Of a DNA stretch of 43,232 nt, positions 2,211-28,800 are shown piece after piece. Made by a program: the position numbers and the translations under genes. This DNA is from a virus: positions 1-43,232 of the IMG/VR virus record IMGVR_UViG_3300025086_000063. One strand, given 5' to 3'. The first letter of the stretch is position 1, and each line of letters begins with the position of its first letter. The notes under the pieces were generated by a model, which had not been told where the DNA came from, did no database searches, and saw only the letters and a program-made list of their open reading frames with translations.

Positions 2211-2226
2211 CGTGACATATGTCATG
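2211..2226. promoter_or_regulatory. Palindrome copy 2, one half-site altered
   Basis: CGTGACATATGTCATG: the right half has one C-to-T change. It is not near a start codon. Its right end merges into the first TGTTCCA octamer of the origin region. Confidence 0.6.
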
Positions 2227-2288
2227 TTCCAGTATGCGTCTGTATTGCGTCAGGTAAGAAACTAAAACGAGATGTAATACCAAAGTTG

Positions 2289-2301
2289 TGATACCAGTTA
2301 T
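2289..2301 (+). repeat. TGATACCAGTTAT element, copy 3
   Basis: Followed by ACAA and CGACGACGCCG, which runs directly into the variant palindrome at 2315. A reverse-oriented near copy (12 of 13) is at 11067-11079. Confidence 0.7.
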
Positions 2302-2314
2302 ACAACGACGACGC

Positions 2315-2330
2315 CGTGACAAATGTCACG
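2315..2330. promoter_or_regulatory. Palindrome copy 3, altered centre
   Basis: CGTGACAAATGTCACG: both half-sites are intact and one central base is changed, so the half-sites and their spacing are kept while the centre drifts. This is what a protein-binding dyad would show. Confidence 0.65.
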
Positions 2331-2811
2331 CTTTGGTTTTGTTCCACGCCTTTACTTTTGTTCCAAAACGCCTACTTTGGTTGGAACAGAATTCCGTTGT
2401 ACTACTAGGGTTGTGAGCGTTTGTTCCAATGTTCCAATGTTCCACGAGGGTATACGCAGGGTTTTAACAATTTGAGAGTCAAGAGTCCTGTTTTCGCAGT
2501 GCAACCAAAGTTGCTCTAGCAGACTGTCCTATTTTTAGAGTGGAACATTGGAACAAACCTATAAATAAAATATAATCTATAATAATAACTATAATAAAAA
2601 CAAACGCTTACCATAGTTAACTTATCGTTGTTCCGTTCTGTTAGTAAAGTTAAAACAGTCTTTTTTATTGGAACACTTGGAACAACCATAAATATCAATA
2701 ACTTACAGGATTTGTTCCGTTCTATTCGTAAAGTTACATTGGAACACGATTTGGAACAACGCCAAAAACAGACGCAAACTACAAATAAATAGCAATCCTC
2801 AAACCAAAGCA

Positions 2812-3271: not shown

Positions 3272-3287
3272 CGTGACATATGTCACG
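3272..3287. promoter_or_regulatory. Leader palindrome copy 5
   Basis: A perfect copy in the 48-nt gap between the stop at 3259 and the ATG at 3308, 20 nt before that ATG, followed by CAACAGAGAGAGG (ribosome site). No promoter box is evident just upstream, so here it acts within a polycistronic message or as a site on its own. Confidence 0.8.
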
Positions 3288-4443: not shown

Positions 4444-4469
4444 TCTCTCATCTAAGATAAACTAAATAG

Positions 4470-4503
4470 AAACACTTGGATATTAGTAAAGTTATGCTAT
4501 ACT
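4470..4503 (+). promoter_or_regulatory. Early promoter, TTGGAT-16-TATACT
   Basis: The 32-bp block 4470-4501 is identical to 2812-2843. The -10 differs by one base (TATACT at 4498-4503). It drives the DUF3150/AAA+/VWA operon. The palindrome at 4557 follows 54 bases after the -10. Confidence 0.7.
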
Positions 4504-4556: not shown

Positions 4557-4572
4557 CGTGACATATGTCACG
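4557..4572. promoter_or_regulatory. Leader palindrome copy 6
   Basis: A perfect dyad 21 nt before the ATG at 4594, followed by CAACAAAAATGGAG. A mini-frame starting inside the dyad (MSRNKNGVKL, stop overlapping the true ATG as ATGA) is present but has no ribosome site. Confidence 0.8.
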
Positions 4573-4593
4573 CAACAAAAATGGAGTAAAACT

Positions 4594-5514
4594 ATGAAAC
4601 TTAAAGAAAGTGAACTTGAAACACCAGAGCATATCATATCGTTAGCAACATCAGGTATGTTAATCTCAACTGATGTAGGGTTGTGGAGTGCTACTAAGCA
4701 AGACCAAGTTATTTCTAACGAAGTAACGACAAACAAAAAAGCTCAAGCAAACGCAGGTAGATTTATTAAACACCTGTTAGCAGGGAATGTGCAACATAAA
4801 GACCTAAAGAACTACCGACAGGAGATATATAATTGGAGGAAGAAAAGAACCTTTCGCTGGAATAATTCACAAGACTATCTACTATCAATAGACTTAGAAA
4901 ACTTTATGAAAGAATGGCACAAACACAAAGCAGAGTACGACAGATTGGTAGATAATTTCTGTAAAAATTACAGGACTTATGTCAGTAAAATGGCATTTGA
5001 AATGGGTGATATGTATGACAGAAACGACTATCCACATGTTGATGAAGTTAGGAAAAAGTTTGGTTGTGAACTCTATGTATCAGAAGTGCCAGAGGGCGAC
5101 CCTCGTTGTCAGATAAGTTACGACTTGGCGAATGACCTTAAAGATAATCTTAGCCGACAGCACAAGGAAAAAATAAATTCTATTCTATCTCAACAGATAA
5201 ATAGATTGACCGAAGTAATGCAAAGTATATCGCATTGTTGTACCTCGCATGAAGTTAAACTAAAAAATGGTACGAAGACACAAAAGAAACGCAAGATATA
5301 TGATGAAACTTTACAAAAAGCAAAGGACTACTGCAAGTCCTACGCAAACTACGATTTAGCAGACACTAAGGATAATAAGAAACTTAAGTCAGCTATTAAA
5401 CTCTTGGACGATACACTCAATGGAGTAGATAGTAATACTCTTCGTGAGAGTGATATAGTACGAGAGCAAGTCAAGTCAAATGTTGATGAAATACTCAGTA
5501 AATTTGATTTTTAA
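4594..5514 (+). CDS. DUF3150-like partner of the AAA+/VWA pair
   Basis: 306 aa from the ATG at 4594, chosen because ATGGAG lies 7-12 nt upstream. The longer frame from 4558 would start inside the leader palindrome. The N-terminal part has a LISTDVGLWSATKQD segment followed by NAGRFIKHLLAG, which recalls DUF3150 proteins encoded beside MoxR/CobS-type ATPases in phages. The rest is helical and charged, with a Lys-rich linker near residue 220 and a KSNVDEILSKFDF end. It is the first gene of the operon with the ATPase (5554) and VWA protein (6620). By analogy it may be an adaptor or substrate of the ATPase. The DUF assignment is from memory of the pattern and is moderate. Confidence 0.7.
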   Translation: MKLKESELETPEHIISLATSGMLISTDVGLWSATKQDQVISNEVTTNKKAQANAGRFIKHLLAGNVQHKDLKNYRQEIYNWRKKRTFRWNNSQDYLLSIDLENFMKEWHKHKAEYDRLVDNFCKNYRTYVSKMAFEMGDMYDRNDYPHVDEVRKKFGCELYVSEVPEGDPRCQISYDLANDLKDNLSRQHKEKINSILSQQINRLTEVMQSISHCCTSHEVKLKNGTKTQKKRKIYDETLQKAKDYCKSYANYDLADTKDNKKLKSAIKLLDDTLNGVDSNTLRESDIVREQVKSNVDEILSKFDF

Positions 5515-5515
5515 C

Positions 5516-5531
5516 CGTGACATATGTCACG
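5516..5531. promoter_or_regulatory. Leader palindrome copy 7
   Basis: A perfect dyad one base after the stop at 5514 and 22 nt before the ATG at 5554, followed by CAAACAAAACTATGGAGG. The ATG inside the dyad (5524) is in frame with the ATPase and would add ten residues (MSRKQNYGGF), but it lacks a ribosome site. Confidence 0.8.
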
Positions 5532-7799: not shown

Positions 7800-7815
7800 C
7801 GTGACATATGTCACA
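7800..7815. promoter_or_regulatory. Leader palindrome copy 8
   Basis: The 14-bp core GTGACATATGTCAC is intact and the outer G is A. It lies 25 nt before the ATG at 7841, within a 38-nt block (7789-7826) identical to 10801-10838. The in-frame internal ATG at 7808 would add MSHNKNYGGFI to the next protein. Confidence 0.8.
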
Positions 7816-7840: not shown

Positions 7841-8713
7841 ATGTTTGAAAGAGTAAAGTTTGAAAAGTTAGAGGATATTCGCAATAACTCTAAACCAATA
7901 AAAGGTAGGAAAGCTGAAGAGTATTACTACTCAAGCAAAAATCATAAAGGTAAATATAGACGAGGTGGTAGGCATTCTATACGACCTGAGTACAATGAGT
8001 ATGGTGTATGTGATAGCTATGTATATATCTATGGGTTGGCAAAGGCAGAAATACTTCGTGTTTATCATAACGATATAGTACAAATGATGAGTGTAGGGCA
8101 AGGTAGACTCATAATGAATGATTTACACGAAGACCGTTCGTGGAGTGTTGGGCATGAGAAATTGAGAGGTGGTCATATACTTCGTCGGTGGTGCTATAAA
8201 GATGAAACACAACGTCGTATATACCCTTTGATAAATGGTATGGCATTTAGTATAGACAGTAATGAACCTGTTACTAAGTATGATGTGCATTGTCGTACTA
8301 TTAATCGTAAGAAAGCTAAAGAGTCATGGGTTGCTAATTATTCAAAATGGTCAGCAGTATTATCTATGATGAAATCTATAGATGATGAAGGAAAAGTGGG
8401 AGAAATGGTAAGAGAGATTCATAAATCACATGGGTTTAAATACCATGATAACTTTCATTGGATAGAATCAAGACCATACAGACCTCTCACACCTGAACAT
8501 ATAGAGGCAGTTAAAAAAGCAAGTAAAGTAAGTGTCTTTGATGAAGTAGTCACTGCTTGTGGTGCATACGACATTCCAGATAATAAGTTATATAAGAGTT
8601 ACTTAAATGAAGTAGATGATAACTTTAATACAAAGATACACCCTTGTGAAGATAAATACTTTCCAACAAACAAACACATTAAAATAGTAATGAGAGAGGT
8701 GAATGATGAGTAA
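7841..8713 (+). CDS. Unknown 290-aa protein after the AAA+/VWA genes
   Basis: The start at 7841 follows TATGGAGGTTTTATT. The frame open from 7808 begins in the leader palindrome and is not favoured. The protein is basic and aromatic-rich, with a Tyr/Lys/Arg-rich N-terminus (EEYYYSSKNHKGKYRRGGRH), a WCYKDETQRR segment and several His and Cys residues spread without a clear zinc pattern. No fold is recognised. Context next to the ATPase/VWA pair suggests a substrate or effector of that module. Its own leader element suggests independent control. It overlaps the next gene by 8-11 nt through a GAGAGGTGAATGATG junction. Confidence 0.75.
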   Translation: MFERVKFEKLEDIRNNSKPIKGRKAEEYYYSSKNHKGKYRRGGRHSIRPEYNEYGVCDSYVYIYGLAKAEILRVYHNDIVQMMSVGQGRLIMNDLHEDRSWSVGHEKLRGGHILRRWCYKDETQRRIYPLINGMAFSIDSNEPVTKYDVHCRTINRKKAKESWVANYSKWSAVLSMMKSIDDEGKVGEMVREIHKSHGFKYHDNFHWIESRPYRPLTPEHIEAVKKASKVSVFDEVVTACGAYDIPDNKLYKSYLNEVDDNFNTKIHPCEDKYFPTNKHIKIVMREVNDE

Positions 8714-10811: not shown

Positions 10812-10827
10812 CGTGACATATGTCACA
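10812..10827. promoter_or_regulatory. Leader palindrome copy 9
   Basis: The 14-bp core is intact and the outer G is A, as in copy 8. It lies 22 nt before the ATG at 10850. It is the most downstream copy seen; none was found in the replication-core or late regions. Confidence 0.8.
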
Positions 10828-10849
10828 CAACAAAAACTGGAGAGACAAT

Positions 10850-11065
10850 ATGAGTAAAGACTATGAGAAAAGAAGTTATACTGTCTACATCACTGCAAAT
10901 TATAAACCTATATCAGTTATGGCATGTAGTAAAGAAGACGCAGAAAAAACTGTACAAGAACATCATGTGTGGGGTGAGCCAACAGATGTGGATATATTAG
11001 CTATTGGAAAGTTTGAATCAAAGCCTGTGGCAACACAAACACGAAAACAAGAAAACAAATGGTAG
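10850..11065 (+). CDS. Small protein, 71 aa, unknown
   Basis: It begins MSKDYEKRSYTVYITANYKP; the start at 10850 follows TGGAGAG. Pattern: strand (SYTVYITAN), strand (PISVMACS), helix (KEDAEKTVQEHH), strand (DVDILAIGKF), then a disordered basic tail (TQTRKQENKW). This is a compact alpha/beta mini-domain of a kind common in phages, without a known family. An in-frame ATG inside the palindrome (10820) would add MSHNKNWRDN but has no ribosome site. It begins the last palindrome-led unit before the replication core. Confidence 0.65.
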   Translation: MSKDYEKRSYTVYITANYKPISVMACSKEDAEKTVQEHHVWGEPTDVDILAIGKFESKPVATQTRKQENKW

Positions 11066-11066
11066 G

Positions 11067-11079
11067 ACAACTGGTATCA
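11067..11079 (-). repeat. TGATACCAGTTAT-like element, reversed copy
   Basis: The minus strand reads TGATACCAGTTGT, matching 12 of 13 bases of the elements at 1188, 2174 and 2289, placed directly after the stop at 11065. It has no GC-rich tail, so it may be a degenerate or chance copy. Confidence 0.35.
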
Positions 11080-11104
11080 AAATACCGAAAGAGGCAAAAC
11101 AAAA

Positions 11105-12210: not shown

Positions 12211-12361
12211 AAACGTATGTCATAAATGTGGAGATAAAGGAAGATTTCTTGATAGAGGAACTTGGTGGTGTGCATGGAAACAAGAAAAAGGTGTATATAA
12301 CTTAGTTGGAAGATGTAAACACGAAAAGAGAGATAGAAACTATGCAAATCCTGACGATTGA
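12191..12361 (+). CDS. Cys/His mini-protein, 56 aa
   Basis: It begins MKKTKDKNVCHKCGDKGRFL from the ATG at 12191. The frame is open further upstream with a GTG at 12119, but that would overlap the previous gene almost completely. CHKCGDKGRF, then WWCAWKQ and GRCKHEK give four Cys and nearby His, a possible zinc site. It overlaps the polymerase start by 20 nt, indicating co-translation with the polymerase. Confidence 0.55.
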   Translation: MKKTKDKNVCHKCGDKGRFLDRGTWWCAWKQEKGVYNLVGRCKHEKRDRNYANPDD

Positions 12362-14228
12362 TTTTGAAACATACTATGCTAGTGACTTTAGTTTATCTAA
12401 GTTAACTACTGAGGCATATATAAAAGACTCACGTTTTCAAGTTATTGGCTTTAGTATTAAAGTAAATGGTGGTGTTGCTAAATGGTACACAGGCACACAT
12501 AAAGAATTAAAAGAAATATTAAACTCATATAAAATAAAAGAAAACGGACTGCTATGCCATAACACTATATTTGATGGTGCAATACTATCTTTTATCTTTG
12601 ATATAACTCCTAAACTTTATCTTGATACTTTATCAATGGCTCGTGCTCTACATGGTATTAATGCAGGTGGCTCACTCAAAGCTCTTGCTGAGAAATATAA
12701 TTTAGGACAGAAAGGCACAGAAGTACTAGACGCAAAAGACAAAAGAATAGAAGACTTTGAACAAGATGAACTAGACCAATATGGTCAGTATTGTATTAAT
12801 GATGTAGAACTTACTTATAAACTTTTTCATAAACTATTAAGACCTCAAGAAGAATATGGTATAGAAGAGTTTCCAAAGTCAGAGATACTATTAATTGATA
12901 TAACTATAAGAATGTTTACTCAACCTCGTTTAAAAATTAACGACGCAATTTTAGTTGAAAGACTTGAAGAGGTTACGACAGAAAAACAACAATTATTATC
13001 TGGGTTAAAAGCTAAGTTAAACTGTGAGACTACTGAAGAAGTACGCAAAAAGTTAGCCAGTAATAAACAATTTGCTGAACTGTTAGAAGAGATGGGAGTA
13101 GTTGTTCCTTTAAAAGTATCACCAACAACAGGTAAAGATACATTTGCATTAGCTAAGAATGACATAGGGTTTATAGAATTAAAAGAACATGATGACCCAT
13201 TGATACAAGAATTGTGTACTGTTAGATTAGGAACTAAGTCTACAATGGAAGAGGCAAGGATAGAGAGATTCTTAGATATTGGATGTCGTAACAATGGATT
13301 ATTACCTATACCTTTGAAATATTATGGTGCACATACAGGTAGGTGGGCAGGGTCAGATAAAGTTAACTTTCAAAACTTACCAAGTCGTGACGTAAAGAAA
13401 AAAGCATTGAAGAACGCAATCATACCACCAAAAGGTCATGTCATACTAAACGTAGATTCGTCACAAATTGAAGCACGCATACTAGTCTGGTTAGCAGGAC
13501 AAGAAGATGTCGTACAAGAATTTAGAAACGGTGAAGATGTGTATGCAAACTTCTCTAGTAAAGTATATGGCAAGAAGATTACTAAAGCTAATAAGAAAGA
13601 ACGTTTTGTAGGTAAGACATGTACGTTAGGATTAGGCTACGGTACAGGTTGGAAGAAACTACAACACACCCTAGAAACATCTGGACAAGTTGCGAAGTTA
13701 GATGAAGCAGAATGTCAGAACTTGGTACGAGTTTATCGTGAAGTAAACCATAAAGTAATAGAGTTATGGAGAGAATGTGACAAGGCATTAGAGTCTATAG
13801 CAAGTAGTACCGACAAAGGCTATTACTTAGATAAACATAAGTGTGTACATATAGAGAAAGGTCGTATTAGATTACCGAATGGTATGTGTATATATTACCC
13901 TGATTTAAGGTGGGATACTTCAGAGTCAAGAGGTGAATTTAGATATAAGTCACGAAGAGGCACAGTCGGTATATGGGGTGGCTCAGTTGTAGAGAACGTA
14001 GTGCAAGCGTTAGCTAGGATAGTCATAGGTGAGCAAATGATAAAGGTTGCCAGGGAGTATCCAGTTGTGTTGACTGTGCATGACGCAATCGTTTGTGTTG
14101 CACCAGAAGAAGAAAAAGATATAGCACTAGAAAAGATTATGAAGATAATGTCTGAGCCTCCTGAGTGGGCACCAGATTTACCTATTGCCTGTGAGGGTGA
14201 TTATGCAAATAACTATGGAGATTGTTAA
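12342..14228 (+). CDS. polA-like: Family-A DNA polymerase with 3'-5' exonuclease
   Basis: 628 aa from the ATG at 12342. An upstream TTG frame adds 12 residues without a better ribosome site. Exonuclease: ILTIDFETYY (Asp7, Glu9), CHNTIFDGAIL and YCINDVELTYKLF. Polymerase: motif A NVDSSQIEARI (Asp near 372), motif B/O-helix RFVGKTCTLGLGYG and motif C LTVHDAIV (His-Asp near 580-581). All catalytic acids are present, so it should be a proofreading replicative polymerase like those of T7-type podoviruses. At about 630 aa it is short, lacking a 5' nuclease domain. It is followed with no gap by a GTG-started gene. Confidence 0.96.
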   Translation: MQILTIDFETYYASDFSLSKLTTEAYIKDSRFQVIGFSIKVNGGVAKWYTGTHKELKEILNSYKIKENGLLCHNTIFDGAILSFIFDITPKLYLDTLSMARALHGINAGGSLKALAEKYNLGQKGTEVLDAKDKRIEDFEQDELDQYGQYCINDVELTYKLFHKLLRPQEEYGIEEFPKSEILLIDITIRMFTQPRLKINDAILVERLEEVTTEKQQLLSGLKAKLNCETTEEVRKKLASNKQFAELLEEMGVVVPLKVSPTTGKDTFALAKNDIGFIELKEHDDPLIQELCTVRLGTKSTMEEARIERFLDIGCRNNGLLPIPLKYYGAHTGRWAGSDKVNFQNLPSRDVKKKALKNAIIPPKGHVILNVDSSQIEARILVWLAGQEDVVQEFRNGEDVYANFSSKVYGKKITKANKKERFVGKTCTLGLGYGTGWKKLQHTLETSGQVAKLDEAECQNLVRVYREVNHKVIELWRECDKALESIASSTDKGYYLDKHKCVHIEKGRIRLPNGMCIYYPDLRWDTSESRGEFRYKSRRGTVGIWGGSVVENVVQALARIVIGEQMIKVAREYPVVLTVHDAIVCVAPEEEKDIALEKIMKIMSEPPEWAPDLPIACEGDYANNYGDC

Positions 14229-16018: not shown

Positions 16019-17587
16019 ATGAATTTATATAAAAATAAAGTATTAAAATTAAAACTACGAGACGAATCAGCAAAACTAGTAAAACAATATATTGAAAGAA
16101 GTGAAATACTTTCAAGAAATGAAGATGGGGTAAACGAAGTAGTTATTTATTGGGGACTTGATGAAATAACTTTACTTAATCAACTTGTAAATACAAATAA
16201 AAATATACCTTCTCCTATTACTAAAGAATATAAATGGGCAGGACTATATGAACCCTTTGACCATCAACGTGTTACATCTGAATTTTTATCTATAACTAAA
16301 AGAGGTTTTTGTTTTAACGAAGCAGGAACAGGTAAAACTTCGTCAGCATTATGGGCAGCTGATTATCTTATGAATAAAGGTAAAGTTAAACGTGTGCTTA
16401 TAATATGTCCTCTATCAATTATGTACTCAGCATGGCAAGGAGATATATTTAATACTTGTATGCATAGAACATCACAAGTTTGTCATGGTACTAAAGAAAA
16501 ACGTCAACTTATAATAAACGGTGAGTATGAATTTATAATAATAAATTATGATGGTGTGGCTATTGTAAGAGATGATATTAAACGAGCTAATTTTGATTTA
16601 ATTATTGTTGATGAAGCTAATGCATATAAATCAACCTCAACAAGTCGTTGGAAAACATTAGCTAAAATATTAACACCTCGCACTAGATTGTGGATGATGA
16701 CAGGAACACCTGCATCTCAATCACCAGAGGATGCATATGGATTAGCTAAATTAGTTTGTCCAGAACGTGTGCCTAAGTTTAAAACAGCATGGCGAGATAA
16801 AGTGATGTATCAAATTTCTAGATTTAAATGGATACCAAGACCAACTGCAAAAGACGATGTGTTTAAAGCACTTACACCTGCGATTAGATTTGCAAAAGAT
16901 GAATGTTTAGACTTACCTGATGTTATGTATCAAACGAGAAATGTTGAATTAACAGCACAAGCTAAAAAATATTATAAGCAACTTAAAAACCAAGCACTAA
17001 TTGAAACAGCAGGAGAACAAATATCTGCTGTAAATGCAGCTTCTGGCATGAATAAATTATTACAGATATCAGGCGGTGCAGTTTATACAGACACAAAAGA
17101 AACAATAACATTTGATATAAAACCTAGATTGAATGCATTACTAGAAGCTATTGAAGAGACTTCACATAAAGTATTAGTTTTTGTTCCATATAGACATACT
17201 ATTAATGTGGTGTCTGAGTTTTTATCAAAGAACAATATAACAAACGAATTAATACATGGTGATGTTAGTGCAAGAGAGAGATACAACATTATTACAAAAT
17301 TTCAAACCGTAGAAGACCCTAGAGTTTTAATTATACAACCTCAATCTGCTTCACATGGAGTTACATTAACTGCTGCTAACGTAGTAGTCTTTTGGTCTCC
17401 TGTAATGTCAGTAGAAGTTTATTTACAGTGTATAGCTAGGATGGATAGAGTAGGACAAAAGAACAAAATGACAGTTGTTCACCTACAAGGCTCTGCTGTT
17501 GAAAAAAGAATGTATGCGATGCTACGAGGAAAAGTAGACCAACATACTAAATTAGTAGACTTATATAGGGAGGTCTTAGAAGAATGA
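16019..17587 (+). CDS. SNF2-family helicase/ATPase
   Basis: 522 aa. Motif Q-like YEPFDHQ, motif I FNEAGTGKTSSA (Lys106), motif II IIVDEAN (Asp198-Glu199; Asn in place of the usual His), motif III MMTGTPASQSPED, and in the second RecA domain LVFVPYRHTINV, LIHGD, GVTLTAANVVV and QCIARMDRVGQKN (arginine-finger motif VI). This is the complete SF2/SNF2 set. Phage SNF2 helicases of this size are replication or recombination helicases, and their place beside the polymerase and primase fits. The stop overlaps the next ATG (ATGA at 17584). Confidence 0.94.
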   Translation: MNLYKNKVLKLKLRDESAKLVKQYIERSEILSRNEDGVNEVVIYWGLDEITLLNQLVNTNKNIPSPITKEYKWAGLYEPFDHQRVTSEFLSITKRGFCFNEAGTGKTSSALWAADYLMNKGKVKRVLIICPLSIMYSAWQGDIFNTCMHRTSQVCHGTKEKRQLIINGEYEFIIINYDGVAIVRDDIKRANFDLIIVDEANAYKSTSTSRWKTLAKILTPRTRLWMMTGTPASQSPEDAYGLAKLVCPERVPKFKTAWRDKVMYQISRFKWIPRPTAKDDVFKALTPAIRFAKDECLDLPDVMYQTRNVELTAQAKKYYKQLKNQALIETAGEQISAVNAASGMNKLLQISGGAVYTDTKETITFDIKPRLNALLEAIEETSHKVLVFVPYRHTINVVSEFLSKNNITNELIHGDVSARERYNIITKFQTVEDPRVLIIQPQSASHGVTLTAANVVVFWSPVMSVEVYLQCIARMDRVGQKNKMTVVHLQGSAVEKRMYAMLRGKVDQHTKLVDLYREVLEE

Positions 17588-18003: not shown

Positions 18004-18675
18004 ATGGCAAGAGAAACTATAACTACAGAAACAGGGGTTGCTTTGTACCCTTGGTTGACTAAACCAGACACAAAGTATAGTGAAGAGGGAGAGTATAAAG
18101 TTAATCTTATACTATCTAAAGAAAATGCTGCACCAATTATTAAAACTATTGTTGGTGTGCATGAAGACAACTATAAAGAGCAACTAAAGATACAGAAGAA
18201 AAAATCTGTTACACAAGCGGCACCTCCATTTACAGAAGAATTGGATGATAATGGTAAACCAACAGGTAATTATATCTTTAAGTTTAAATCAAAAGCAGCT
18301 TACAAACCTGCAATTTTTGATGCAAAAGGTAATGCATTGATTGACCCTCCAATTTGGGGTGGCTCTGAATTAAAAGTTAACGCAGCATTGTATCCATATT
18401 TTTCACCTATGAACGGAGCAGGTGTTTCATTAAAGATAAAAGCTGTTCAAGTAATCGCTCTTGTTGAAGGCTCAGAAGGTGCAAGCCGTTTTGGGTTCAG
18501 TGAGACTAGCGGATACAATGTTAAAGATGGTGTTGATGAACAAGTAGATGCTAAAGTTTTTGATAAAAAAGCAGATGATGTTCCTGAGCCTGAAGTAGTA
18601 AAAACTAAATCCGCATCTGATGGAAGTAAAGACGTTACAGACATTTTAGATAAGTGGGGAGTAAAGGATGACTGA
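18004..18675 (+). CDS. Putative ssDNA-binding protein (DUF2815-like)
   Basis: 223 aa behind AAGGAG. It begins MARETITTETGVALYPWLTK and is predicted to be a beta-rich OB-type domain (GEYKVNLILSKENA, NYIFKFKSKAAYK, ELKVNAALYPYF, GVSLKIKAVQVIAL). A flexible acidic C-terminus ends in ILDKWGVKDD. This layout matches phage SSBs of the DUF2815 / T7 gp2.5 type, where the acidic tail docks the polymerase and helicase. The same tail (DKWG) ends the neighbouring protein at 18668. It overlaps that gene by 8 nt. Function: coats ssDNA at the fork and promotes annealing. Confidence 0.75.
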   Translation: MARETITTETGVALYPWLTKPDTKYSEEGEYKVNLILSKENAAPIIKTIVGVHEDNYKEQLKIQKKKSVTQAAPPFTEELDDNGKPTGNYIFKFKSKAAYKPAIFDAKGNALIDPPIWGGSELKVNAALYPYFSPMNGAGVSLKIKAVQVIALVEGSEGASRFGFSETSGYNVKDGVDEQVDAKVFDKKADDVPEPEVVKTKSASDGSKDVTDILDKWGVKDD

Positions 18676-19484: not shown

Positions 19485-19793
19485 ATGGCAAGACCATATA
19501 GTGATAAACTTTTAATTCATCTAACTAATGCTGACCCTGAGAGGGTTGGTATACAGTTAGCAAAGTTATGCGTAGAGGCTAAACTACCTGCTTCAGCAGT
19601 AGCTGAATATTTTGAAGTCTCAAGGATGGCAGTGCATGGATGGTTTAGAGGTAAATATATACGAGAAAAAAAATGTATTAGTATTAGAAAATTTATGAGT
19701 GTAGTACAAAAAGACTTGGATAAAGGGAAGTTACCAACTAAAACTCAGGTATTAGCTAAGAAATATTTACAGAATATAGAAAATGATTACTAA
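19485..19793 (+). CDS. Helix-turn-helix DNA-binding protein, 102 aa
   Basis: It begins MARPYSDKLLIHLTNADPER. Residues about 36-59 (ASAVAEYFEVSRMAVHGWFR) are a clear Cro/CI-type helix-turn-helix, with Ala and Val at the expected turn positions and a recognition helix rich in Arg, His and Trp. The C-terminus is basic. GAGGGAG precedes the ATG. It overlaps the primase-helicase gene by 11 nt. As a regulator made with the replication genes it is the best candidate in the window to bind the early palindromes or the operator repeat, though this is only inference. Confidence 0.75.
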   Translation: MARPYSDKLLIHLTNADPERVGIQLAKLCVEAKLPASAVAEYFEVSRMAVHGWFRGKYIREKKCISIRKFMSVVQKDLDKGKLPTKTQVLAKKYLQNIENDY

Positions 19794-22653
19794 ATTTTAC
19801 AAAAAAATATTACCAATAAAGGGCAACAAATACTGTATAGCTTGGACTAGTGGCAAAGGAATGAACCACGAGTGGGTTGATTATATAAAAGATATAGAAC
19901 CCACAATAAAAAACTTACAGAGTAAACACAAAGATATAAATATATATGTAGCTATGTCTTCTTTTGAAGGACAAAGCAGGTTAGCTAAACATGCTACGTA
20001 TAGAAAATCTTTATTTGTAGACCTAGATGTAGGTAAAGATAAAGCCGAGTCAGGTAAAGGGTATGCTACAAAAGAAGAGGCAGAGAAAGCTTTAGATGAT
20101 TTTGTAGAGAAAACTTTATTACCTCCTGTAATTAAACTAGATTCTGGTAATGGTATACATGGGTATTGGCCTTTACAAGAAGAGCTAACTATAAAAGAAT
20201 GGGAGCCTTACGCAGAAAAGTTTTTTAATTTTTGTTTAGAGCATAAGTTATTAGTTGATTCTTCTGTTATGTGTGATGCTGCTAGAATAATGCGAAGTCC
20301 TGATAGTATTAATTACAAGAAAGGGAAAGAACCTGCACCTGCCAAACTATTAACCGAAGAGATACATGAGTATTCATTGGAACTTATCAAAGATATAATT
20401 GGTGAAGTAGAAGTATCACTAGATGTTATATTAAAAGATAGAAAACTAACTGAGGACCAAAGAAAAGCACTTAAGTTAGATAACTTTCAATCTGTATTTT
20501 CTACTATAGCTAAGAAAAGTCTTAGAGGTGAAGACGGTTGTAATCAAATAAAACATATATTAATGAATGCAACTATGTTAGAAGAACCTTTATGGTATGC
20601 AGGTTTATCAATAGCACAGCATTGTAAAGATAGAGACCAAGCAATACATTTGATGTCAGAGAATCACAAAGACTATGACCCAAAAACTACTGAGGCTAAA
20701 GCTACACAGTCACAAGACAAACCTTTTTCATGCGAAAAATTTAATGACCTTAATCCTACAGGGTGTGATGGATGCTCACATAAAGGTAAAATAACAAACC
20801 CTTTAGCAATAGGTAAAGAATTTGTACCTGCCCCATCTACAGATGTAACTCCTGTAGAACAACATAAACAAGGTGGTGCTTTGTCTACTCTTGGTGGATT
20901 ACCAAAAGACTTGTATCCATTTGTATATGGTGGTGCAGATGGTGGTATTTACTTTGAACACCCACAAGAAATAGATGAAGATGGGCAAGCGTTACCACGC
21001 AAAAAACCTATGTTAGTATCACCATATGATTTGTACCCTATCAATAGAATATATAGTGCAACAGAGGGTGAGTGTTTAAATATGATGTATCATCCACCTA
21101 ATGATAAGCCAAGAGAATTTATGATGCCTATGGAGCATTTATATGACCCAACAAAATTTAAACAAATTGTATTACGTAATGGGGTATTTTTTGACCCTAA
21201 CAACCAACAAGGAAGATATCTTATGACTTATATTTATAGATGGGGAGACTACCTATTATCCAAAAGTAAAGCTGAAATTATGCGAACACAGATGGGGTGG
21301 ACACCAGATAAAGATGCTTTTGTAATAGGTAATAAAGAAATAGATTTAAAAGGAAATGTTGTCAATAGTCCAACTTCACCATTATGTAAAGGTATAGCTC
21401 AACATTTAAATACTGAAGGTAGCTATGAAGAATGGAAAAAAACAGCTAACAAACTAAATACACCTAGTTTAGAACTACATGCATTTACTATGTTGACTGG
21501 GTTTGGTTCGGTAATTATGGACTTTACAACTACCAATGGTATGACTGTATGTCTCACAGGAACAGATTCAGGTTCAGGTAAAACAGGTGCATTACAAGCA
21601 GCTTTGAGTATATGGGGTAATCCAGAGGCACTAAAGCTTACACAGGGTGGTGCTACAGAGAACGCATTAACAGCTAGATATCTAGCATTTCATAATCTAC
21701 CGTTTGGTCTAGATGAGGTAGGTAATATAGAAGGTAGAGCGTTATCTAATCTAATACATAAGATATCAAATGGTAAAGCAAAAGTGCGTATGCAAGCCTC
21801 AGTGAACGCTGAGAGGGAGTATGAGATGTCTGCCTCACTAATAGCCTTGTTTACCTCTAATCACTCTTTATATAACACCTTGCAGACTGTAAAGAAAAAC
21901 CCACATGGAGAGGTGGCTCGTTTACTAGAAATTACTGTGAATAAACCTAAGATATTCTTTGATGACCCAACAGCAGGGGCAGGCATATTTCAACCCTATA
22001 ATCACCACTATGGGCACGCAGGGTTGGATTTTATAACTAAGTTATTTGATTACTCTCCTGATGATATACGTAGTAGAATTGACAAGTGGTTAGTTAAATT
22101 TAAGAAAGACTTTGGAGACGATACTACTTATAGATTCCATGAGAACATGGTAGCTTGTACTTTTGCTGCAGGTGAAATAGCTGTGGAGCATGACATAGTA
22201 GACTTAGATTTATCTAGAATATATTTAGCTACTGTTAGTGAACTTATAAATATTAGAGATAACGTCATAGGACGTATCAATGTGGTAGATTACGAAAGCA
22301 TCCTTGGAGAATATCTTAATGCACACAATACTAACATCCTGGCACTTGAGGTGAACGAGAATAATCGACTTAATCAAGAACCAAGAGGTGAACTATTGAT
22401 ACGTGCAGAGATTGATACAGGTAAGATGTTTATAGAAAAGCGTCACTTTAGAGAATATCTTGCTAAATTAGGTGTTAGTGTGTCTGACTTTATGCTCAAG
22501 ATGAAAGCAAAAGGTTATAACATACGTGACCATAAACGTCGTATGGGTACAGGTTGGAAAGCCGCTACAGGATTTAGCTCAGTAATGACACTTGAGATTG
22601 ATACTACTAAGTTTATAGAAGACTTGATACAGGAAAACAATGAGACTAAATGA
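19783..22653 (+). CDS. Primase-helicase fusion (Prim-Pol plus DUF927-like)
   Basis: 956 aa. The N-terminus has archaeo-eukaryotic primase/Prim-Pol features: LFVDLDVG (Asp80, Asp82), LDSGNGIHGYW (to His126) and DAARIMRSPDSINY. A cysteine cluster (CEKFNDLNPTGCDGCSHKG, about residues 316-334) may bind zinc. The C-terminal half is a RecA/SF3-like ATPase: Walker A TGTDSGSGKTGAL (597-601), Walker-B-like LPFGLDEVGN, and LIALFTSN as sensor, as in DUF927 primase-helicases. It should synthesise primers and unwind DNA, and may also recognise the iteron origin. The start at 19783 overlaps the HTH gene. No separate primase gene is seen. Confidence 0.88.
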   Translation: MITKFYKKILPIKGNKYCIAWTSGKGMNHEWVDYIKDIEPTIKNLQSKHKDINIYVAMSSFEGQSRLAKHATYRKSLFVDLDVGKDKAESGKGYATKEEAEKALDDFVEKTLLPPVIKLDSGNGIHGYWPLQEELTIKEWEPYAEKFFNFCLEHKLLVDSSVMCDAARIMRSPDSINYKKGKEPAPAKLLTEEIHEYSLELIKDIIGEVEVSLDVILKDRKLTEDQRKALKLDNFQSVFSTIAKKSLRGEDGCNQIKHILMNATMLEEPLWYAGLSIAQHCKDRDQAIHLMSENHKDYDPKTTEAKATQSQDKPFSCEKFNDLNPTGCDGCSHKGKITNPLAIGKEFVPAPSTDVTPVEQHKQGGALSTLGGLPKDLYPFVYGGADGGIYFEHPQEIDEDGQALPRKKPMLVSPYDLYPINRIYSATEGECLNMMYHPPNDKPREFMMPMEHLYDPTKFKQIVLRNGVFFDPNNQQGRYLMTYIYRWGDYLLSKSKAEIMRTQMGWTPDKDAFVIGNKEIDLKGNVVNSPTSPLCKGIAQHLNTEGSYEEWKKTANKLNTPSLELHAFTMLTGFGSVIMDFTTTNGMTVCLTGTDSGSGKTGALQAALSIWGNPEALKLTQGGATENALTARYLAFHNLPFGLDEVGNIEGRALSNLIHKISNGKAKVRMQASVNAEREYEMSASLIALFTSNHSLYNTLQTVKKNPHGEVARLLEITVNKPKIFFDDPTAGAGIFQPYNHHYGHAGLDFITKLFDYSPDDIRSRIDKWLVKFKKDFGDDTTYRFHENMVACTFAAGEIAVEHDIVDLDLSRIYLATVSELINIRDNVIGRINVVDYESILGEYLNAHNTNILALEVNENNRLNQEPRGELLIRAEIDTGKMFIEKRHFREYLAKLGVSVSDFMLKMKAKGYNIRDHKRRMGTGWKAATGFSSVMTLEIDTTKFIEDLIQENNETK

Positions 22654-22840: not shown

Positions 22841-25800
22841 TTACTCTGGTATACCTTGTGTAACAGCATTTGTCATTTGACGTTTTATAATTAGCTGAGT
22901 TTTCTTTATATAGTCTAAAAGTTCTTTTTTCTGTTTTGGTGTTAAATCTTGATTATCTCTTATTTTATTAGCTTGTGCATTCAACTTGTTAAGTCGAGCT
23001 TTTAAACTATCAAAAACTTTTATAGTTGGTAATGCTGCAGGGTTATCATTTAACGTTTCTAAATATTTTGTTGGGTTAGTATTCTTAAATAAATCTATTT
23101 GTTCTCTAAGTTTATCAACTTTTTTTATAGTGTTAGCATAAGCTCTTTGGTCTAGGTCAGAAAACTTATTAAAAAAACTACCAAGAATTATAGTATCTGA
23201 TTTTAAGTTAAGTTCTTGTTTACCTCTTGCAGTCAAGAAAAGTAAGCTATACATATTTTGCGAAAAAGTTGCAGCAGCATCAAGATAGTTATTAGCAAAG
23301 AAATAGTATTCATTAGGAGAAACATTCATAAGACCTTGTTCTGCAAAAAAAGCTGCTATATCTTTATACATCTCTGGCGTTGAGTCTGCACCTGAATAAG
23401 CTGCTCCACGACCTGTTGTTTGATTATATATCGGCGAACCGAAGCCGTTAATATTCATATTATATTGAAATAATGGTCTTATAATACTTGGCATAAGACT
23501 ATCAAGTCCAAAAGTTATTGCCCTATCTGTAGGATTCACTCTAGATATTGGTATGGGTGCAAAATTATCTAATACAATAGTGCTCATATTACCAAATATT
23601 GATGCTTTAGAATTTTCATTAGAATGAATAAGACCTGCAAGTTGAGAACCAAGTGCAGGTATACCGCCTAAACCAAAACCCCACGGTATTTGAAAGACAT
23701 CACCTTTTTTACCTGTAATTGCACTTATATCAAATCTAGCATACCTAGTCCATCTACCTAAGTCATCATTTAATACCATGTTTGTATCATCTTCATCATC
23801 ACCAGTCGCAAGCATAGATGCTAACATATAAATAATATACCCTAAACCTAGAAGTGAACCTGTTGCTACTTGTGCTCGTTGTTTTTTTAATGCAAATTTT
23901 TGTCTAAAAGTAGCTAATCTTTGAGGGTCATTTTTTATATAGTCAGATAAATTACTTTCTACTTCGCTTTCTCTCATCATACCTGGTCCTATTGTTTGAA
24001 GAGCTCTAGCAGCACCAACTGCAGAAGCACGGAAGAACATAAAGAAAGCACCAAAAGCACGACCGAGTTCACCAACCTCTTCGAAGTTAGATAATCTTTT
24101 AGCGTATACTGCTGCTGAAGATTTGGCTGCATTCATAACTTCTTTAGAAACCTGATTATCTTTTAGTCCAGTTGCGTTTCTAGCTAAGTAATTCTTTTTT
24201 AATGTTGAATATGCTGCTACCCTTACACTCAATTCAAACATACCCATATAGGCATCAAAAAATCCATTTACTTGTCTACTTGTTTTTGCAATTTTATCTC
24301 CTTTAAACATTTTTTGTTGTTCTCTAAATACTGCTTCTGATGACAAAGCTTGTTTATAAGCTACCATACCACCTTGTTCTAGATACTCTAAAAACATTTT
24401 AGGATAAGTATTACCTTTTTTAGTTTCTTCATTTACAAATTTTCTAAGTTCAACTTTTTTTCCATCATTATATAATCTGGTCATTTTAAAACTGTGCCTA
24501 AAACCTTTCTTTGTTATTAATGTTTCAGCCATAGACATAGCAAAAGCATTTGCATCTTTTAGTCCTACGTCTGTAGCTATTAAAAAATATGCCGAAATAA
24601 AATCACGAGTGAAGTTTACTGGTCCAAATTTTACATTATATCTAGTATGTAATTGTCCTAATTTACCTGTTAAAAAATTAGCAGTATCTAATAAAGGATT
24701 TTTATTAGCATAAGATTTTCTAACTGCTGTAAGCATAGCTTCATCTTTAATTGAAATAGCTACAAGAGAACCATCAGGTAAAAAATGAATTACAGTATTT
24801 GGTTTTTGTATTGCTTTTTGAAGGTCATCACTATTTCTGTATCTATCTTCATAACTAAATATTTCTTCTATTTTACCATCTATAGCAGTGGTTTTTACTT
24901 TTTCACCTTTCTCATTGAGATATTCAATTTCTGTTGATACTGCATTATATAATGCTTCAGTGTATCCAACTCTACCTGCTCTTGAAGCTGATAATGATGC
25001 GTCAACTACAACTTGTGTGAATGGGTCTTCTGCATCTTCTGTTTGTGCTTCAAAAGTAGATTCTAATTTTTTTAATTCTCTTGACATTTTATTTGTTGGT
25101 TCAAGAAATGCCATATCATCAGATACAAAATCTTGATTCTGTTTACCTTTTAATGGAATATAGTTATTCCAACCATAGAAATCTAATATGTTAGTAACTT
25201 GAGGCCCAGCATAGTTACCTAAAGCATTAAGTTTTGTAGTTTCTGTTTGCACTGTTGTCATGTTTTTTCTAACTGTATTCATAGCATTATAAAGTTCTGG
25301 ATTACTAAGTTTTACATTTTCATACTCTTGTTTTAGTTGTACACCAGTATTGTAATCAATAACAGATACATCATAAAAACTATCTTTTATGTCTAATGGA
25401 ATTTTACTAGGTAATGTTTTTTTATTTTTATAACTTTTACCTAATTGTTTGTTTTCATTTGTAACTTTATTAGTTACAGTAGGTTGACCTGAAATTCTTG
25501 TTTTAGGGTCAGCTAAAAATATAAGGTTTTGTTTGTATTTTTTTAAAGCTGCTATACGTTCATTAGGGTCAGTCCACTCTTTATTAGTTATAGTTTTCAT
25601 AATTTCTTCTCTATACTCAGCAGGTGACACCTTTGTACCATTTTTACCTTGCATTATTTCTATTGTACTTAACGGTACTGTTAAAATATATCTTATTTGT
25701 CTTCTTTCAAATTCATGTTGTCCTAAAAATAAATCTTGTAAAACGGCTCTTGCTCTTGCTTCACTCGCTTCAGGGTTTGCTTCTTGGTATATTTTTATGT

Positions 25801-28800
25801 AATCTAATAAGCTATTTTCATAGTCTTTTAAAGAAGGTAGCATCTCAATCATATAATCGTTTGCTTTAGAGTATGACAACACAAGTTGGTCATAAATATC
25901 ATTATTTCCCTCTACCCCTCTAAGTAATAAGTTAGAATCTTCTAGCTGTTGTTGTAAATCTTTTATTTTAACAGACGCATTTGCAAACTTTCTTTCTACA
26001 TATTTAACAGCTTTTTCATACTGTATGCCATTATTCATTATTGATTTTAAACCTGCAAAAAATCTACCTGTATCTGTTCGTTGTTCATTTGCTTCTGTCT
26101 GTTGTTCTCTTCTTTGTAAAGTTGTTCTACCTTTTTTATCTTTACTTTGAGGTCCCTCTAATGCGGCAGGGTCCATTCTGTCACCTGGCGGAAACAATAT
26201 ATCTATTATTTCTTGTGGTATACCTCTTTGTTTTGCATTTATAGCTTTTACAAAGTTTATCTTTCTTTGTGTTACTGGAGGTATCGCACCAAACTCAAAC
26301 AGTTCAGGAGTCATTTTAATTGTGTCGCCTAATAAAGAATTATCTACATCTCCTCCTATACTTAATAGTCTTTTTATTGCGTTAATTAAATCAGATAGTA
26401 ATGATTTAAATGTGGACTCTCTTGACAGTTGTGGGTCAACACTTTCTATTGAAGCTAAGAAATTAAAAAATGTAGGATTACTAAATGCCTCTGCAAAAAA
26501 CTCTTGTATATCTGTAAGTCCATAAAAATCATTTTTAAACTCTGTAATACCTTTTTCTGCAGCAGCTTCTCTTGCTTTTACAAGCATATCTCTTAATATA
26601 GTTGCTTGTTCTAAATTTATATTAGAAAGACCGAGCATGGTTGCAGCGTGTAGAGTTTCGTGAAAAAACGCCCTAGCCATACTAGAATCTTCTAAATTTT
26701 CTACAATAGAAATTGTGCTATTTTGTTTATCTAAATTACTTATATACATACCTTCAACGTTTTCTTCTTTTGACAATTTCTTCATTGCTTCAGGTGTTAT
26801 AATATTTACCCTTACATTGTCTAAATTAGGAACTCTCAAAAGAACATCTATCAAAGATATTTGAAATAGTCTTAATTTTGTTGCTGGTTTAGATGATATG
26901 TTTTGACGTATTAATATTAAACCTTCTCTTGCGTTAGTAGCATTTCTTAGAATACTAGTAGTAGGAGCATCCGTGGCTACTCTAGCTGTTTCATCTCTTA
27001 ATTTTGCATTTAGATTAGTTTCTTTTTTTAATTGTTCTTTAAGTTTATTTAATTGTTTTTGGTCTTTTTGTGCAGCTAATTGTTCTTTAAAAGCTTTATA
27101 AGCTTTGTCTACCATATCTTTTATAGTTCTACCATCTGCATAAAAATTAACAGCCACTTTAGTATCTACATATTTAAGACTTTTTCTTTGTCCTTTTTCA
27201 AATCTTTCAACTTGTGAATCTATAGAGTTATCAAATGCACTATCTAGTATTTTATTTTTAGATATATTATTTCTTGATAAATAAGCGTCAAAAAGTGGTG
27301 AATTGTAAAATTCTTTTCTTGTATCTCTACGTTTATTTAAACTGTCTTCATTAACTATAGTGCCATCAAAAACACCTCTACCATAAAATTCTTCTTTGTT
27401 TGCTCCCTTATCAGGTTTACGTATTATATTATCCATTCCTTCTTCATAAATATAATCACCTAACACTGCTTTCATTAAATCATCAACAGATGTTGCATCT
27501 TCTATTGGACTACGAACAGAACCAAACACGGCACCTGTTTTAATAAAGTCTGGTATAGCCACTCCTAATATTTTTGCTTCAACTTCTAACTCTTCTACAA
27601 CAGGGTTAGTGTTAGCATTAAAAGCTTTTAATCTTTTATCTGTTTCTGTGTTTACTGTTTTTGTACCAGCAGTTCTAGCAGGGTCTATGGCATAACGCTC
27701 TTTTATTTTTCTTGGTATTTGGGCTAGTATTTTATTATACTTATCTTTGTCTTTACTTATTTCTTCAAATTGTTCTTTGTTTAAACTATTATTTAAAAAT
27801 CTTCTAATTTCAAGTGGATTTATTTTTGTTTCTTTACCACCTTTTTTAGTTTTAATTACTTCAATTATTTTATATTCTTTACCAATAGAAACTCCTTGGT
27901 CTTTAAGAATATAGTTAGTTAACTCATCAGCTATTTTACTATTAGCTTTAAGTTTTTTACCTTTCTTTAAATCTAATGTAACACGAGGTTGTAAATAGTA
28001 TGATAGCACTACTTCTTTTGCTACTTGACCTATAGACTCAATTTCTCTCTCTTCTCTTATAAAATGACTGTCTTCTAAATTATTATCTTTTTGATAATTT
28101 TGTATTTTAGTTTTATTATTACTTAATATTGTAGATGTTTTAAGTTCTTCTTTTGTATCAGCTGTTGTTTTTATAGGTGATGCTACATTAAGATATGCTT
28201 CGTATTCTCGTTTAAAATCTTTATCTTTAAATCTAGTTCTTGCATAATTATCTGCTTTTCTTTTGCCTTCTTTCTCAGTGTTATAAATCTTAGCATATTC
28301 ACTTTGAAACTCTTGTATTCTAGCAGGCACAGGAAGTTTTTGTTCTTTAGCTTGACTTGCTCGAATGCCAGGTCCAGCTTCGTCTAAATTGATAGTTGGT
28401 GATTTTTCTTCTTGTATTTCATTAATATAGCCCATTATGGCATCAACACCTTGTTGTATTTCTAAGTCCTCACCTTGAAGCTTTTCTATATCAGTTTTTT
28501 CTGCATCAATTTTTTGTCCTCCTTCTAGTGCTTTTCTTCTTAGTTCTTCTTGTCTTTCTCTATTAGCTTCTGCTCTTTTTTCAGCAAGTTTTTGTCTTCG
28601 TTCAGCAGCAAGTTCTTCTTTTTGTTCAGCAGTAAGAGTATTAGTTTTATTACCAAGATTTGCTCGTCTTCTTTCAGCATCTAGTACAGGTATGTTATCT
28701 ACAACTAATTCTATAGGGACATCATATGTATTTGAGTCATTAATTATTAATATTTTATCTTCATCAGTTAAATGTTCGGCTTTATTTAAAGCTTCTGCTA

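Follow-up and report, generated by a model that had tools for sequence, protein, structure and literature searches.

What does a dense array of TGTTCC-containing octamers do in the noncoding DNA of an uncultured virus, and which protein recognizes it? The window considered here is the whole of the 43,232-base virus record IMGVR_UViG_3300025086_000063 (positions 1–43,232), and it is a partial genome since a relative with shared gene order, G007 (61,071 bases), adds terminase, portal and capsid-side genes. An N4 gp24-like ATPase, a VWA partner and a family A polymerase are features that the window shares with N4-like phages (Schitoviridae), and the phage is N4-related and uncultured rather than the T7-type podovirus supposed in an initial annotation of this DNA. 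The array is best explained as the replication origin of this phage, a reading in which we place high confidence, and the form that suits its sequence best is an iteron origin that the primase-helicase encoded by the phage itself would open, host IHF probably taking part.

The octamer array in the window

There were 15 TGTTCC cores within 534 bp (2225–2758), eight on the plus strand and seven on the minus strand, in a noncoding stretch whose neighboring genes end at 2109 and start at 2933. The initial annotation had counted fifteen copies of an 8-mer; that number holds for the hexamer core, but only nine are exact TGTTCCAA octamers (2359+, 2381-, 2422+, 2430+, 2548-, 2668-, 2677-, 2739-, 2751-), together with four octamers bearing one change (2225+, 2340+, 2438+, 2540-) and two copies of TGTTCCGT (2629+, 2713+). 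The perfect 8-bp triple, the close pairs and the repeated cassette that it described are all present (Table 1), whereas what it took for an A/T-only core at 2557–2607 is A/T-rich instead (43/51, rising to 39/41 in 2560–2600). Chance is excluded both by shuffling and by density, confirming that the array is real: the whole window has 13 exact octamers against 2.15 expected, a count reached by 0 of 100 shuffles, and the local density has E = 9e-11.

Table 1. Features of the putative origin and of the replication module in the window
Feature	Position	Strand	Description
Left-flank iterons	2225..2388		TGTTCCAG 2225+, TGTTCCAC 2340+, TGTTCCAA 2359+, TTGGAACA 2381-; conservation below that of the core
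Core plus arm	2422..2445	+	Three TGTTCCA[A/C] in perfect 8-bp tandem (2422/2430/2438)
Core spacer	2446..2539		Central motif CGCAGTGCAAC at 2495-2505, candidate primer start site
Core minus arm	2540..2555	-	Two octamers in 8-bp tandem
A/T-rich tract	2557..2600		Probable duplex-unwinding element
IHF-like site AAACAAACGCTTA	2598..2610	+	42 bp from minus arm
Cassette 1	2629..2684		TGTTCCGTTCT - GTAAAGTTA - two TTGGAACA (2668, 2677 = minus-strand TGTTCCAA)
Strict IHF consensus TATCAATAACTTA	2693..2705	+	Adjoins 2668/2677 pair
Cassette 2	2713..2758		Layout as cassette 1
Family A DNA polymerase	12306..14228	+	Replication module shared with primase-helicase
SNF2-type helicase	16019..17587	+	Replication module
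gp2.5-like single-strand binding protein	18004..18675	+	
Primase-helicase (956 aa)	19783..22653	+	AEP primase 1-207; DUF927 MCM-like helicase; winged helix ~886-940

Promoter-like stretches occur upstream of early genes at 272–309, 1298–1335, 2815–2852 and 4458–4500, forming two near-identical pairs around TATAATGG. A palindrome, CGTGACATATGTCACG exactly or nearly, also recurs nine times in the early region (1255–1270, 2213–2224, 2317–2328, 2897–2912, 3272–3287, 4557–4572, 5516–5531, 7801–7814, 10813–10826). Nine palindrome sites are found in matching order in G007 with CTGAGAnnTCTCAG in place of CGTGACATATGTCACG, and this concerted switch suggests a regulator and operator that co-evolve. A 2524-aa protein at 22841–30415 had no match in a PHROGs search; its place might suit a virion RNA polymerase or an ejected protein of N4-type phages.

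Conservation and helical phasing among relatives

The initial annotation had looked to close relatives and to GC skew as checks on an origin, and both agree with it. The array is kept in three IMG/VR relatives, with its order and spacing preserved in DNA that is 72–77% identical around it, the core arms nearly invariant and the triple plus arm unchanged up to its last base. The skew minimum fell 0.5–3.9 kb from the array in 11 of 11 contigs (one of them the partial window), a result confounded by a switch of transcription strand at the same place. In two relatives (L013, ~8548–8600; L014, ~8524–8575) cassette 2 is inverted compared with that of the window and ends in TTGTTCC/GGAACAA; this is a natural orientation test of the sites, and because of it cassette orientation seems unimportant.

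The exact 23-mer of the plus-arm triple occurs in 59 IMG/VR stretches and convergent core arms in at least 119 viral stretches. The slot is syntenic, between terminase and the W318/ATPase/VWA genes, and nearly all loci have a terminase/portal arm on one side and on the other an early arm with a homologue of the 4558–5514 gene, the N4 gp24-like ATPase and the VWA protein. Array-bearing larger records (G007, G009–G012, G014, G015) encode a primase-helicase 40–87% identical and a family A polymerase 59–84% identical. When identity of the primase-helicase falls to 32–40%, an unbiased k-mer scan still detected a dense array in the unchanged slot, made of another repeat. The drifted repeats, the ATTCCAA type included, are TGTTCAA (G422), [AG]TTCCAA (G425, G430) and TGTTCCGT (G438), while G432 and G431 retain TGTTCC-type repeats; this drift may follow the primase-helicase no more closely than it follows other genes. 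DnaA-box-like sequences lie beside the array of G425. Among further relatives of the primase-helicase, G439 and Rollin had no detectable array, which counts against the origin reading. Clusters of GGTAAT, GTCCTTG and CCGCC repeats (G421, G001 and others) were set aside as coding or low-complexity.

Across nonredundant loci the spacer measures 93–118 bp, with clusters at 103–108 and 113–118, as taken between two-octamer cores with an upper bound fixed by the search pattern. Near its middle, GCRRTG was present in 28 of 46 spacers, compared with 0 of 46 on the reverse strand and a maximum of eight in shuffles. The 60 bp outside the minus arm were A/T-rich in 43 of 44 nonredundant loci, the median lying at the 99.7th percentile of its own locus and the mean A/T content at 81% vs 57%, and tract sequences differed between loci. 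Beyond the tract an IHF-like site, WAWCAANNNNTTR, was found in 32 of 40 loci (16 strict; shuffles mean 0.7, maximum 4), where IHF-like denotes a consensus match only, with A for T at position 3 in half of the sites. The E. coli IHF consensus is WATCAAnnnnTTR, and IHF is confined to phyla such as proteobacteria (PMC10380432); the four central bases of the sites here are more constrained than IHF requires. Distances from site to minus arm fall at 40–44, 52–54, 63–66 and 75–77 bp, a period of ~11 bp or one helical turn that was matched by 0 of 5000 nulls, also with each distance counted once, among loci filtered on shared spacer 8-mers, by which kinship is reduced and some remains. Such phasing is as expected for a DNA-bending protein that stays on the same side of the helix. 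DnaA boxes, present in some members, were enriched 5.7-fold (p 2e-4).

The candidate initiator and competing readings

The AEP primase domain of the primase-helicase has invariant D80 and D82 and an SGxGxH motif, and residues 1–207 of its model align with S-2L PrimPol (Z 18.2); the DUF927 helicase has Walker motifs (PF06048, E 3.8e-24). Profile matches that include the C-terminal region were obtained to SCCmec Cch (PDB 5dgk, E 3e-26) and SaPIbov1 Rep (PDB 8tch, E 6.5e-25), and model residues ~360–949 align with Cch (Z 31.2) and with SaPIbov1 Rep (Z 27.4), to 8tch as far as 948, the winged helix at 886–940 being built as helix-helix-strand-strand. The primase-helicase is therefore homologous to SaPIbov1 Rep, an iteron-binding initiator. 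In SaPI Rep the C-terminal domain recognizes short iterons, apparently as two hexamers (PMC7581432). In the window and its lineage ~17 kb separates this gene from the array, whereas terminase genes are 2–6 kb off, a point against the origin reading. From this homology and by elimination, the octamer binder would be the primase-helicase. The initial annotation had also put forward the 1399 protein, which is not likely to be the binder as it was found only in the window's closest group.

Arrays in other elements bear on the same question. In Pseudoruegeria sp. HB172150 an TGTTCCAA array with two facing arms immediately follows a Prim-Pol/DUF5906 gene, and in Roseovarius pacificus such an array follows a DUF5906 gene; both elements have an integrase, and both have IHF-like sites outside the arms. 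These Roseobacter loci (L137:11069–18436 with L138:1072–4155, and L139:11698–19135 with L140) are small integrative elements in which the octamer array is accompanied by genes for an integrase, a primase-helicase, a recombinase-like protein and a lone tape-measure-like protein, and are possibly phage satellites. The convergent pattern was found in Pseudoruegeria alone among 395 genomes of the same family, and close-relative patterns found no relative of its PrimPol among viral contigs. In Flavobacterium phage lotta8-1 (array at 10816–11088) and three relatives the octamers lie right behind a VapE-like helicase gene; no IHF-like site was found there. Profiles of the N4-related lineage's proteins had no match in the Roseobacter elements or lotta8-1, so that the sole recognizable link is the class of primase-helicase. 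Arrays of other repeats, of the types TGTCCAGG, TTTCCAC and TGTGCAG, lie just downstream of a DUF5906 gene in plasmids of Roseomonas (9.7 kb), V. vulnificus (pMP1, 7.6 kb) and M. nodulans (pMNOD07, 9.8 kb), and a related layout of NATCAANNNNTTR, A/T tract and TCTAR repeats lies behind PrimPol in the cultured phages Mallos, AXL_1, VBv52 and Donnerlittchen (in the last at ~38.7–39.4 kb), the plasmid and Mesyanzhinovviridae arrays having been recognized by eye and k-mer counts without formal control. No such array was present in a Nitrosoglobus DUF927 plasmid (with RepM), and searching plasmid DNA for the octamer tandem turned up no convincing array.

Several genome-contig matches in Prevotellaceae, Hungateiclostridiaceae, Verrucomicrobia and others resemble simple 8-mer expansions or interspersed repeats and were set aside, the full layout being found among them only in Roseovarius and Pseudoruegeria. 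Three contigs of one Prevotellaceae UBA2448 genome (L118, L119, L125) have tandem TGTTCCAA in a non-phage setting, with four copies facing four inverted in L118, and look like interspersed repeats. Group D phages (L021/G013) have an octamer triple plus one inverted copy with an A/T spacer (L097, from G013, 2120–2220) in an unrelated genome with UvrD, AEP-TOTE primase and PolA, and their array is possibly a case of convergence.

One alternative keeps the iteron origin and changes only the initiator, such that another phage protein, for example the product of 4558–5514, binds the octamers and loads the primase-helicase. Most loci retain that protein next to the array, but it has no match in G431, where TGTTCC repeats occupy the slot, in lotta8-1 or in the Roseobacter elements, and the primase-helicase has a winged helix of its own, homologous to that of an iteron-binding initiator; we therefore consider this alternative improbable. 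Another alternative is a packaging site, at which the small terminase would bind the octamers and mark the start of packaging. In the N4-related lineage 1.7–5.7 kb separates terminase genes from the array, in lotta8-1 they follow it shortly and in Donnerlittchen they are ~2 kb away, the Pseudoruegeria element has a weak TerS-like match (E 0.0017), and lambda cosB combines repeats with an IHF site. Against this, similar arrays lie behind primase-helicase genes of 7.6–9.8 kb plasmids with no terminase among their listed genes (the gene tables being incomplete), the A/T tract and DnaA boxes are features of origins, and no fixed end is seen at the slot, because larger contigs run through it at least 6.7 kb from their ends. 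The occurrence of such arrays with primase-helicase genes in plasmids as well favors an origin, and packaging is quite improbable. Operators, at which a phage transcription regulator would bind the octamers and control early genes, would suit a noncoding region near a promoter-like stretch (~2818–2847) in a phage whose early genes bear another operator-like palindrome; yet there is a single dense array per genome, with an unwinding tract, as opposed to sites at many promoters, conservation extends to the convergent arms, the A/T tract and the helical phasing, and no regulator was detected that lotta8-1 or the Roseobacter elements have in common with this lineage, leaving this reading very improbable indeed. 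A host LexA-type or DnaA-only site was dropped, since hosts differ and the spacing and sequence of the array presumably do not fit.

The iteron origin that the initial annotation had suggested is thus supported, because order and spacing are conserved, a lineage-specific repeat occupies a fixed slot, the A/T tract and IHF-like site are fixed in place and the primase-helicase is homologous to SaPIbov1 Rep, and also because unrelated elements have the octamers next to their primase-helicase genes and plasmids carry similar arrays. As proposed from these sequence patterns, the C-terminal winged helix of the primase-helicase would bind TGTTCCAA octamers on the facing arms (2422–2445 and 2540–2555), where the protein would assemble two helicase rings. 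Host IHF at 2598–2610 may bend the DNA across the A/T tract (2557–2600) and aid its melting, the AEP domain would lay the first primer, possibly at the GTG-containing motif in the center of the spacer (2495–2505), and phage DNA polymerase, single-strand binding protein and SNF2 helicase would extend the forks, probably in both directions.

It is conceivable, though here we are tentative and lean slightly against it, that one origin grammar is common to AEP primase-helicase replicons of several unrelated kinds (N4-related phages, Mesyanzhinovviridae, integrative elements and small plasmids), with iterons that drift with the initiator and a fixed geometry: facing 8–9 bp iteron tandems, a spacer whose center carries the primer-start motif, an A/T tract spanning whole helical turns and an IHF-like site. 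If that were true, sequence could reveal where replication starts in thousands of uncultured phages. If the reading of the array itself is right, a large uncultured phage lineage gains an origin, an initiator and a probable DNA-bending factor of the host together, the helically phased layout yields a prediction of how the initiation complex is arranged, and iterons drift naturally in a manner open to test by array swaps. Experiments are possible now because lotta8-1, which has the octamers, and Donnerlittchen, which has a related layout, are in culture. The open-access literature found on N4-related phages describes no such origin, and a literature search for the octamer returned irrelevant primers only.

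Comparison with known systems

Among the closest known systems are SaPIbov1 Rep and SCCmec Cch, whose DUF927 MCM-like helicase and winged helix are homologous to those of the phage protein, and which, like the window, have their iterons grouped in a single noncoding locus that includes an A/T-rich region. In contrast to these, the phage helicase forms one protein with an AEP primase, the putative origin is ~17 kb from the initiator gene rather than directly downstream of rep, and the IHF-like site is phased to the A/T tract; on these three grounds the phage origin is set apart. An array directly downstream of the gene is found in the Roseobacter elements, lotta8-1 and the plasmids, all with other primase-helicases. 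The phage origin may well work like a SaPI Rep origin, yet it is not filed as one because of the distance to the initiator gene. Phage P4, with type I iterons TGTTCACC at ori1/crr and the alpha protein, resembles the present array in octamer iterons that start with TGTTC and occur in both orientations, and in an initiator that is a primase-helicase (as proposed here). The two differ in that the primase domain here is AEP, whereas that of P4 alpha is of another kind. NrS-1 PrimPol is likewise an AEP primase-helicase and recognizes short sites (TTTGGTTA, GTG) for primer start, and facing arrays with an A/T tract and IHF site are not described in the passages considered (PMC8718748). Iteron plasmid origins and oriC share with the array its repeats, A/T tract, IHF consensus and, in some members, DnaA boxes; they rely on Rep or DnaA recruiting DnaB, whereas here the initiator is proposed to be the primase-helicase.
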